Source of the DNA: SAR86 cluster bacterium
Lineage (GTDB): Bacteria; Pseudomonadota; Gammaproteobacteria; Magnimaribacterales; Magnimaribacteraceae
Reading direction: 5' to 3'
Assembly (NCBI GenBank): GCA_029268615.1
Contig: JAQWNM010000010.1
Coordinates: 124,001 to 188,000, forward strand
Length of the DNA stretch: 64,000 nucleotides
The notes under the pieces are model-generated. The model saw only the letters and a list, made by a program, of their open reading frames with translations. It was not told the origin of the DNA and ran no database searches. The position numbers and the translations under genes were made by a program. Shown piece by piece: positions 1-55,083 of the stretch; position 1 is the stretch's first letter, and each line of letters begins with the position of its first letter.

Positions 1-713
1 TCTAAATTTTCTATACTGCAAACTATAATACAATTATCCTTCCTATCCCTAACTACCTCCATCTCAAATTCTTTCCACCCCCCTAGGAATTCATCTATGT
101 AAACCTCTCCAGTTGGAGATAATTCAAACCCTCCAGCACAAATTGCTTGAAATTCATTAAGATTATAGGCGATGCCCCCTCCAGCGCCTCCCATTGTAAA
201 ATTAGGTCTGATAACGCAAGGGAATCCTATATCTTCTATTATTCTATTTGCCTCTTCTTCATTATGGGCTAAATCTGCCTTTGGAGTTTTTAAACCTATC
301 TTCGTCATAGCTGCAGCAAATAAGTCTCTATCTTCAGCTTTATCAATTGCTTCTTTAGACGCTCCTATCATTTTAATTTCATATCTATCCAGAACACCAT
401 TTTTATGAAGATCTAAAGCTGCATTCAAAGCAGTTTGACCTCCCATAGTTGGCAAAATTGCATCAGGTTTCTCTTTTTGGATTATCTTTTCTATGGTTTG
501 CCATCTAACAGGTTCTATGTAGATTGAATCCGCCATTGAAGGATCAGTCATGATGGTAGCTGGATTTGAATTTATCAAAATAACTCTTATACCTTCTTCT
601 TTCAAAGCTTTGCATGCCTGAGCTCCGGAATAATCAAACTCACATGCTTGACCTATAACTATAGGACCAGCCCCTAAAATTAAAACTGAATTAATATCTT
701 TTCTTTTAGGCAT
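1..713 (-). CDS. carB: Carbamoyl-phosphate synthase large subunit, N-terminal part (cut by window edge)
   Basis: Large subunit of carbamoyl-phosphate synthase, which makes carbamoyl phosphate from bicarbonate, ATP and ammonia passed from CarA, for pyrimidine and arginine synthesis. Only the first 237 of about 1075 residues lie in the window. The start reads [20 protein letters not shown], and [27 protein letters not shown] and [10 protein letters not shown] follow, all hallmarks of the first ATP-grasp half. The ATG (713-711) overlaps the carA stop by 8 bases (ATGCCTAA), so the two are translationally coupled. The gene is simply cut by the window; no frameshift is seen. Confidence 0.97.
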
Positions 714-1824
714 TTCTTATTTCCATCTCTTGTATAAATTTCTCAAATAATCCATTTAAATCTTTAGGTCCAGGGCTTGCTTCGGGATGACCTTGAAAAC
801 TAAAAGCAGGGCTGTTTTGGTATTCTATACCCTGAATAGAGCCATCAAATAAAGATCTATGAGTAACTTTCACCTCTTTTGGTAAAGAACTATCATCTAG
901 TGTAAAACCATGATTCTGGCTCGTTATAGAAACAATTCCTGAACTAAGCTCTTGAACTGGATGATTAGAGCCGTGATGACCAAATTTCATTTTTTTTGTT
1001 TTAGCACCTAAAGCTAACCCTAAAAGTTGATGCCCTAAACAAATTCCAAAAATAGGAATTTTTGACTTTATTAAAGATTTAATTGATTCTATAGCGTAGG
1101 TGCAAGGTTCTGGATCTCCAGGGCCATTGGATAGAAATACTCCATCAGGACTCATACTTAAAACCTCTTCATGAGAAGTAGAAGCGGGAACTACAATAAC
1201 CTCACAACCTTTTGCACTCAATATTCGTAAAATATTTTTTTTCACACCAAAATCATAGGCTACAACCTTATATTTATAGTCATTTAATGTTATATCTAAG
1301 CTATCATTTTCAAAAGAATATACTGAACTAGTTGTTACTTCTTTAGCTAAATCCTTCCCTGACATACCCTTGAATTCTTTAGCAAATTGAATAGCTTCTT
1401 TGTCAGATATATCAATATCTGAAAATATTGAACATGATTGAGCACCTTTTTTTCTAAGTATTTTTGTTAACTGACGCGTATCTACATCTGAAATTGCTAC
1501 TATTTCATTTGTCTCAAGATAAGATTGCAAAGACATTTCATTTCTCCAGCTACTAGTTATAAGAGGAAGATCCCTTATAACTAGACCTGAAGCCCAAACT
1601 GATTCTGACTCTTTATCTTCTTTGTTGGTTCCAGTATTACCAATATGAGGATAAGTAAACATTATGACCTGATTAGTATAGGAAGGATCAGTTAGGACCT
1701 CTTGATATCCAGTCATAGAAGTATTAAAGATTAGTTCTCCATTTATAGCGCCTTTAACTCCTATTCCCTTCCCATAAAAAACAGATCCATCTTCTAGTGC
1801 CAGTAAGGCCTTATTCTGATTCAT
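706..1824 (-). CDS. carA: Carbamoyl-phosphate synthase small (glutaminase) subunit
   Basis: Releases ammonia from glutamine and channels it to CarB. The 372 residues are normal length. The N-terminal CPSase domain starts [17 protein letters not shown]; the class I amidotransferase domain has the nucleophile Cys262 in GICLGHQ and the His346/Glu348 pair in GHPEAS, so the triad is complete. The ATG at 1824 has no visible Shine-Dalgarno sequence. A short upstream ORF ends 14 bases inside carA and a strong hairpin-plus-T9 terminator lies 28 bases upstream, suggesting attenuation and translational coupling (inference). In Pseudomonas carA follows dapB; here its head-to-head neighbour is map. Confidence 0.97.
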
Positions 1825-1915
1825 CAGCTAGCAAGTATAATTTGACTGAAACAAAAAAAAACGGACTAGAAGGAAATTCTAGGTCCGTAATCTTGTATAT
1901 AATGCTAATAGGCAT
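1811..1915 (-). CDS. Putative carAB leader peptide (34 codons)
   Basis: Short ORF beginning ATG at 1915, starting [14 protein letters not shown] and running through the attenuator hairpin, with three consecutive TTT codons lying in the terminator T run. It stops at TAA 1813-1811, just inside carA. No Shine-Dalgarno precedes it; the predicted transcription start is only a few bases upstream, so it could be read leaderless. By analogy with E. coli pyrL (leader of pyrBI), a ribosome closely following RNA polymerase stalled in U-rich RNA would prevent terminator folding. That it is translated is inference; the ORF, its position and the overlap are seen directly. Confidence 0.4.
1853..1888 (-). 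terminator. Intrinsic terminator/attenuator in the carA leader
   Basis: On the minus strand an 11-pair stem (ACGGAC + one bulged C + TAGAA against TTCTA + GTCCGT) closes a 5-base loop and runs directly into nine T residues. It lies between a good sigma-70 promoter and the carA start, so it would stop carAB transcripts unless prevented. On the plus strand there is no T tract, so it does not serve map. Confidence 0.75.
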
Positions 1916-1924
1916 TAAAAAAGC

Positions 1925-1953
1925 ACTATAATAAATGTAAAGTTATCTGTCCA
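1925..1953 (-). promoter_or_regulatory. Sigma-70 promoter for the carA leader
   Basis: Minus strand -35 TGGACA (1953-1948), 17-base spacer, -10 TATAGT (1930-1925). The region where transcription would begin is GCTTTTTTAATG. A run of T in the first transcribed bases is the arrangement used by UTP-sensitive promoters (reiterative transcription) at E. coli carA and pyrBI; that regulation is inferred here. Confidence 0.55.
1927..1932 (+). promoter_or_regulatory. Possible -10 element for map
   Basis: Perfect TATAAT on the plus strand, overlapping the carA -10 on the other strand, 56 bases before the map ATG. No convincing -35 is seen 16-18 bases upstream, so this is tentative. If real, the two divergent promoters would compete for polymerase. 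Confidence 0.35.
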
Positions 1954-54729: not shown

Positions 54730-55083
54730 GGGGGCGAACTGGCTTCGACAGCAGATATGAACCTTCAAGTGCATGTCGAGAAGGTAGTAATTCTCGTTAA
54801 TAAAAAACTACAAACTTGTTAGTTGGCGAAAACGCAGACTACGCTTTAGCCGCTTAATTGGCTAACTGTTTTTACTTGGTGTCCGTGCCATTGTAACAAC
54901 AGTCGACTTCACGGACTGCTGAGTTTCCTCTTCTCATTAGTAAACTCTTAAGAATAAATTGAGATCGTCTTCTAAACCCTGTTCATCGGGTCTTCTAAGA
55001 TAAAACTAATAGATGAAACTAAACATGTAGAGCTTGTAGCAGAGTACTGGTGGACGCGGGTTCAATTCCCGCCGCCTCCACCA
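54730..55083 (+). ncRNA. ssrA: Transfer-messenger RNA (tmRNA)
   Basis: Rescues stalled ribosomes and tags their proteins. The 5' end GGGGGCGAACTGGCTTCGAC and 3' end GTTCAATTCCCGCCGCCTCC plus ACCA form the tRNA-like domain: a 7-pair acceptor stem (GGGGGCG/CGCCTCC, one G-T) and a T arm GCGGGTTCAATTCCCGC. CCA is encoded. The tag reading frame starts at GGC 54825 after TAGTT and reads GENADYALAA, then TAA (54855-54857); the ALAA end is what ClpXP recognises. One-piece (not permuted) tmRNA, 354 bases. Confidence 0.96.

Follow-up and report, generated by a model that had tools for sequence, protein, structure and literature searches.

Results

A promoter, a short leader ORF, and two hairpins precede carA

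The window analyzed here is a 64,000-nt stretch of a bacterial genome (G000, 1.77 Mb) that places in the SAR86 order, an abundant, streamlined, and hard-to-culture marine lineage. Close to one end of the window, carA is preceded by a promoter, a leader ORF, an inverted repeat covering the start codon of that ORF, and an intrinsic terminator lying inside it (Table 1). The gene on the other side of this region, map, is on the plus strand and divergent, and the terminator is therefore not needed by any upstream minus-strand gene. The window also contains a tmRNA gene (54730–55083, plus strand; Rfam RF00023).

An initial annotation of the window had described a TGGACA-N17-TATAGT promoter, a 34-codon ORF that passes through an 11-pair hairpin followed by nine Ts, has TTT TTT TTT in the T run and ends 14 nt inside carA, and a carA gene without a Shine-Dalgarno sequence. 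All of these features are present as described: the promoter spans 1953–1925 on the minus strand, the terminator has an 11-bp stem with one bulged C (fold about −12 kcal/mol), and no Shine-Dalgarno match is found in front of carA. A simple terminator scan of the window missed the 1888–1853 hairpin, presumably because of the bulged C. Two further features had been overlooked, namely an inverted repeat that could fold across the start codon of the leader and the lack of room for a ribosome-binding site upstream of that codon.

Table 1. Features of the carA leader region (window coordinates)
Feature	Position	Strand	Description
−35 hexamer TGGACA	1948..1953	minus	T[AG]GAC-type −35; 17-bp spacing across families f1–f3
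−10 hexamer TATAGT	1925..1930	minus	Fixed distance from leader ATG
Predicted start positions	1916..1919	minus	T1919, T1918, T1917, A1916; 6–9 bp after −10; predicted from geometry and start-site rule (PMC5730371)
5′ hairpin TAATGC-CTATTA-GCATTA	1900..1917	minus	Includes leader ATG; arms TAATGC 1917–1912 and GCATTA 1905–1900
Leader ORF	1811..1915	minus	34 codons; ATG 1915; stop TAA 1813–1811; 14-nt overlap with carA
Intrinsic terminator	1853..1888	minus	Hairpin 1888–1861 (ACGGACCTAGAA-TTTCC-TTCTAGTCCGT) and T run 1861–1853
carA	706..1824	minus	Start ATG 1824; first structural gene of the controlled operon; without Shine-Dalgarno sequence

The arrangement is conserved in three of four SAR86 families

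We compared the upstream regions of carA loci drawn from 101 genomes. The 90 loci comprise 70 usable ones from families f1, f2, and f3 (17 genera), 18 from family f4, and 2 that are unusable (L057 from G084, left out because the wrong end had been extracted, and L026 from G033, which runs off its contig). At 70/70 usable f1–f3 loci, a promoter is followed by a leader ORF that begins at promoter +2 to +5 and has a hairpin over its start codon; the initial annotation had named a lack of conservation in close relatives as grounds for abandoning its proposal, and the same architecture is instead found throughout. Promoter, leader ORF, and AUG hairpin are seen at 0 of the 18 loci of f4, the genome-reduced family with the smallest genomes.

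Families f1 and f3 have an intrinsic terminator within the ORF; f2 has no recognizable one but keeps the promoter, the AUG hairpin, and a leader ORF coupled to carA. The terminator is therefore not the whole device, and attenuation in this form cannot apply to f2. A single-gene carA tree leaves the order of the four families unresolved, so that gain of the terminator cannot be told from loss. In f2 (members of L032–L074), carA often has a Shine-Dalgarno sequence, and control there is possibly purely translational.

Among the pyr genes checked, the leader occurs only before carA or before a pyrF-carA operon, in which the leader is followed by pyrF and then by carA (genus g7 and part of g4; L012, L013–L031). 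Two sister species of g4 differ in this respect, L012 having pyrF and L030 lacking it, and the leader is kept in both. In G000 and several other genomes pyrF is located in another operon without such a leader; neither this native pyrF locus nor the pyrB locus was found to carry it when checked.

The promoter geometry predicts almost no 5′ UTR

The −10 hexamer is TATAGT in f1 and most of f3, TAAAGT in f2, and TAGAGT in f3 genus g12. In all 70 f1–f3 loci the leader ATG follows it after exactly 10 nt and is preceded by T[T/C]TA. The usual start of bacterial RNA polymerase lies 7 bp downstream of the −10 element, and starts more than 2 bp beyond this position or more than 1 bp short of it are rare (PMC5730371). 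The start is thereby limited to T, T/C, T, or A, giving a predicted 5′ UTR of about 1–4 nt at all f1–f3 loci, with no room for the leader ribosome-binding site that a pyrBI-type attenuator would have. In the window, a six-T run (1922–1917) surrounds the likely start site; such a run is not universal, the sequence being TTCT in most of f3.

A hairpin is predicted over the leader AUG

When RNA starting 5 nt before the ATG is folded, two or three bases of the AUG are paired in every one of the 17 genera (MFE −4.7 to −9.6). With the tail after the ATG shuffled, the share of trials giving an equal fold ranged from 0 to 2.8% among the genera (P ≤ 0.028 each), and among other long-ORF starts in the window only 1 of 38 has such a fold. 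RNAalifold, run on a MAFFT alignment, returned almost nothing for f1 and f3 because the loops differ in length and put the arms out of register, and the arms were therefore compared directly. The 3′ arm GCATTA(A/G) is kept in both families, with loops of 6 and 5 nt that shift its codon phase; since the arm is kept in different phases, it is the nucleotides rather than the encoded residues that are conserved. The partner in f2 is CATTAAA, at a greater distance and enclosing a second short GC pairing. The position 3 nt before the ATG, which pairs as T-A, C-G, or T-G, is the sole compensating position. Hence, the case for a 5′ hairpin is made by the folding controls and by the preservation of the GCATTA arm across codon phases.

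A covarying terminator lies at a fixed distance from the ATG

In all f1 and f3 leaders the T run begins 54–57 nt after the A of the ATG, and the hairpin itself starts about 24–28 nt after the ATG, although the hairpin sequences differ. Over six arm pairs, 163 of 168 are standard pairs, compared with a mean of 126 and a maximum of 137 in shuffles, and single stem positions change pair type (G-C, A-T, and T-A at one, A-T, C-G, and G-C elsewhere). A chance hairpin, or the 3′ end of another gene, is ruled out by the divergent neighbor, the conservation, and the covariation. The stretch between the ATG and the terminator is A-rich, with a T content of 17–38% and mostly 17–25%, and thus offers no U-rich pause region of the pyrBI type between the leader start and the terminator; the only U-rich parts of the leader are the terminator loop, in many genera, and the U-tract.

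The reading frame and its end point are constrained, the peptide is not

The leader ORF is usually 28–37 codons long. Among 38 distinct f1 and f3 leaders, its frame (frame 0) stays open from the ATG across the U-tract in 34, and frames 1 and 2 in 4 each; in f2, frame 0 is open over 84 nt in 22/22 leaders, and the other two frames in 0 and 0. The first stop falls within 20 nt of the start of the next gene in 63 of 67 cases in frame 0, and in 3 and 4 cases in the other frames, whether the next gene is carA or pyrF. At most f2 loci the stop and the carA start overlap (TAATG, TAGTG, TGATG, or ATGA), and at the pyrF-carA loci the stop lies between −3 and +16 relative to the pyrF start. An ORF that crosses the intrinsic terminator, as in pyrBI, is thus found with the exception of g13, in which four leaders (L053, L055, L056, and L062) have ORFs of only 8–15 codons that stop inside or just before the terminator hairpin. 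The carA start in g13 is 7 nt after the U-tract. In f1 and f3 a Shine-Dalgarno sequence is usually weak or missing in front of both carA and pyrF (g12 is an exception), presumably because a leader ribosome that wins against the terminator would also end on the next start codon.

The initial annotation had predicted a bias toward synonymous change in the leader ORF. There is none: in 17 leaders from g4, g5, and g7, the variable sites show no preference for any codon position, and frame 0 has no excess of synonymous changes over the other frames. The close relatives L005 and L010 differ by one base in the T run, and this alters the entire peptide tail. Openness and end point are thus constrained and the peptide is not, and on this comparison the peptide sequence is not the signal; a mechanism that depends on translation as such would leave the peptide free to vary.

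Discussion

A probable translation-coupled attenuator

Sequence comparison establishes the promoter–ATG geometry, the AUG hairpin, the frame that stays open to the next start, the covarying terminator, and the association with carA or pyrF-carA. From these we consider it probable that the leader is a cis-acting, protein-free attenuation switch for the pyrimidine/carbamoyl-phosphate genes of SAR86, coupled to translation and ending in a ribosome hand-over. Transcription would start 1–4 nt before the leader AUG, as the promoter geometry predicts, and the nascent RNA could fold a small hairpin over the AUG; about 55 nt after the ATG would come the intrinsic terminator ending in a U8–9 tract. The leader would then be the scene of a race, in which RNA polymerase needs about 65 nt to arrive at the release point and a ribosome must load on the 5′-terminal AUG, move a few codons, and mask the terminator arm 24–28 nt downstream. 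Quick loading, before the polymerase leaves the U-tract, would mask the stem and give read-through, and the same ribosome would finish at or close to the carA (or pyrF) start codon; slow loading, or a closed AUG hairpin, would let the terminator form. The initial annotation had suggested both an attenuator whose leader ORF crosses the terminator and a coupling of carA translation to the leader, and the comparison supports both. Speaking against this reading are the short g13 leaders, the lack of a terminator in f2, the lack of a conserved U-rich pause region, and the lack of a leader at pyrB.

We infer that the switch responds to pyrimidines (UTP) because of the genes that it controls, the absence of ArgR and PyrR, and the precedents of E. 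coli pyrBI, Pseudomonas carAB, and E. coli carAB P1. ArgR (PF01316) has a match in 0 of 41 SAR86 genomes, and PyrR has no match above cut-off in 41 SAR86 genomes and none at all in G000. UTP-dependent pausing before the terminator fits poorly with the low T content of the ATG-to-terminator stretch. In view of that U-poor stretch, the missing ribosome-binding site, an AUG in a hairpin, and a T run that is not universal, we offer a further idea, attractive but speculative and rather unlikely as it stands: the start site itself may be the UTP sensor, the choice between a U and an A start gating the attenuator through the leaderless ORF. With ample UTP, a U start would give a longer 5′ arm that locks the AUG in the hairpin, leaving the leader untranslated and leading to termination; with scarce UTP, an A start would leave a short hairpin, so that a ribosome could load on the near-leaderless AUG, suppress the terminator, and be handed on to carA. 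For assumed starts, the hairpin energy is about −1 to −4 kcal/mol for an A start and about −5 to −10 for a start 5 nt upstream. It is weakest in the window, where a shorter 3′ arm keeps the difference small (−3.3 versus −4.7). E. coli pyrC is controlled by start-site switching, in which transcripts can begin at different nucleotides and a 5′ hairpin conceals the region of initiation; there, however, the switch acts on the structural gene directly, whereas in the putative SAR86 version it would act on a leader ORF and a terminator.

Other explanations

In a strict pyrBI mechanism, low UTP would cause the polymerase to pause in a U-rich leader, letting the trailing ribosome reach the terminator in time, and the AUG hairpin would be incidental. 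A leader ORF crossing an intrinsic terminator, a U-tract with UUU codons, a pyrimidine operon, and terminator loops that are U-rich in many genera all agree with this possibility, yet the A-rich composition ahead of the terminator, a hairpin that begins so soon after the ATG that little room is left for pauses, and the conservation of the AUG hairpin in 17 genera make it doubtful. It seems improbable that the near-leaderless AUG senses how many ribosomes are available, or the state of growth, rather than pyrimidines: such a general sensor of translation would suit a 5′ UTR that by geometry is at most about 4 nt, the absence of U-rich pauses, and the unconserved peptide, but not the restriction of the leader to carA or pyrF-carA among the pyr genes checked, nor the fact that it stays with the operon where pyrF has been inserted.

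The inverted repeat over the start site might also be the DNA operator of a repressor, with the hairpin only its shadow. We think this very improbable, since the spacer varies between families (5 or 6 nt in f1 and f3; 19 nt in f2, between TTTTAATG and CATTAAAA) and TAATGC/GCATTA is a single-copy repeat in G000, at carA, not seen at pyrB or pyrF, even though the repeat is a near-perfect palindrome and shows compensatory change at one position only. A regulon-wide operator is ruled out by the single occurrence. An attenuator consisting of the terminator only, as suspected in pseudomonads, would make the ORF an accident. In a comparison set of 79 other carA loci, mostly gammaproteobacterial and many of them closely related, a terminator-like hairpin is found upstream of carA at 69 and an ATG ORF through the hairpin at only 6; against this, the openness of the SAR86 frame and the position of its stop are far from chance, and the accident is highly improbable. 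Finally, carAB also supplies arginine synthesis (PMC6245113), which could favor amino-acid attenuation by, for example, arginine, but the leader peptides contain no run of Arg or of any other regulatory codon, that of the window has no Arg at all, the peptide is unconserved, and no alternative antiterminator fold was noted, all of which renders this extremely unlikely.

Relation to known systems

The initial annotation had equated the SAR86 leader with the exact design of E. coli pyrBI, and part of this stands: a leader ORF spans an intrinsic terminator, UUU codons are present, the operon is a pyrimidine operon, and the peptide is not the signal. The pyrBI leader gene is 135 bp long with the terminator inside (PMC4824070). 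The SAR86 leader differs in its length of 28–37 codons, its U-poor sequence before the terminator, the near absence of a 5′ UTR, an AUG covered by a hairpin, and a stop that overlaps the next start.

Pyrimidine attenuation of carAB is already known in Pseudomonas, and the SAR86 leader is a variation on it. According to PMC4997734, carAB of P. aeruginosa and P. syringae has a single promoter and a stem-loop terminator that is required for the pyrimidine response, and a leader peptide has been reported for P. aeruginosa (PMC4997734, citing Kwon et al., 1994). SAR86 shares with this account the genes, the single promoter, and the terminator stem-loop between promoter and carA. In contrast to SAR86, Pseudomonas carAB is under ArgR control, the P. 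syringae locus lacks an evident leader ORF, and the available part of PMC4997734 describes no AUG hairpin. What sets the SAR86 form apart is the combination of an ORF through the terminator, an AUG hairpin, and a stop-start hand-over.

The P1 promoter of E. coli carAB is under pyrimidine control through a T run at the start site and UTP-dependent reiterative transcription (PMC6245113). Pyrimidine control of carAB and a T run at the start site recall the SAR86 window; unlike SAR86, E. coli carAB has no attenuator and uses two promoters with ArgR, PurR, PepA, and others. The carA motif RNA of Polynucleobacter (PMC8632094) is likewise a structured RNA of aquatic proteobacteria that directly precedes carA, but it is one extended imperfect hairpin proposed to be a riboswitch, and the available part of that source mentions neither a leader ORF nor a terminator. 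An Rfam search with the SAR86 leader gave no family at gathering score; such matches as it returned were weak, at chance level, and far under the family cut-offs.

In the open-access literature searched, we found no description of an attenuator in SAR86 or of this leader. The leader is probably a self-contained switch in which translation decides whether the pyrimidine genes get copied at all. With neither ArgR nor PyrR in the genomes examined, carbamoyl-phosphate and pyrimidine synthesis would be set by a compact switch made of RNA only. If this is true, the SAR86 attenuator has hardly any 5′ UTR, and a single short ORF, by being translated, both overrides a terminator and brings ribosomes to a gene without a Shine-Dalgarno sequence; the natural variants of the leader (with the terminator, without it, or lost altogether) would allow one to dissect which part does what. 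Given the frequency of terminator-like hairpins in the comparison set, carA attenuation is probably widespread and in that sense not new. Several of the other gammaproteobacterial carA loci (L095–L173) have start-site T runs, such as those of Marinomonas (AGATTTTTTG) and Pseudoalteromonas (CGAATTTGCC), that recall E. coli pyrBI, codBA, and upp.
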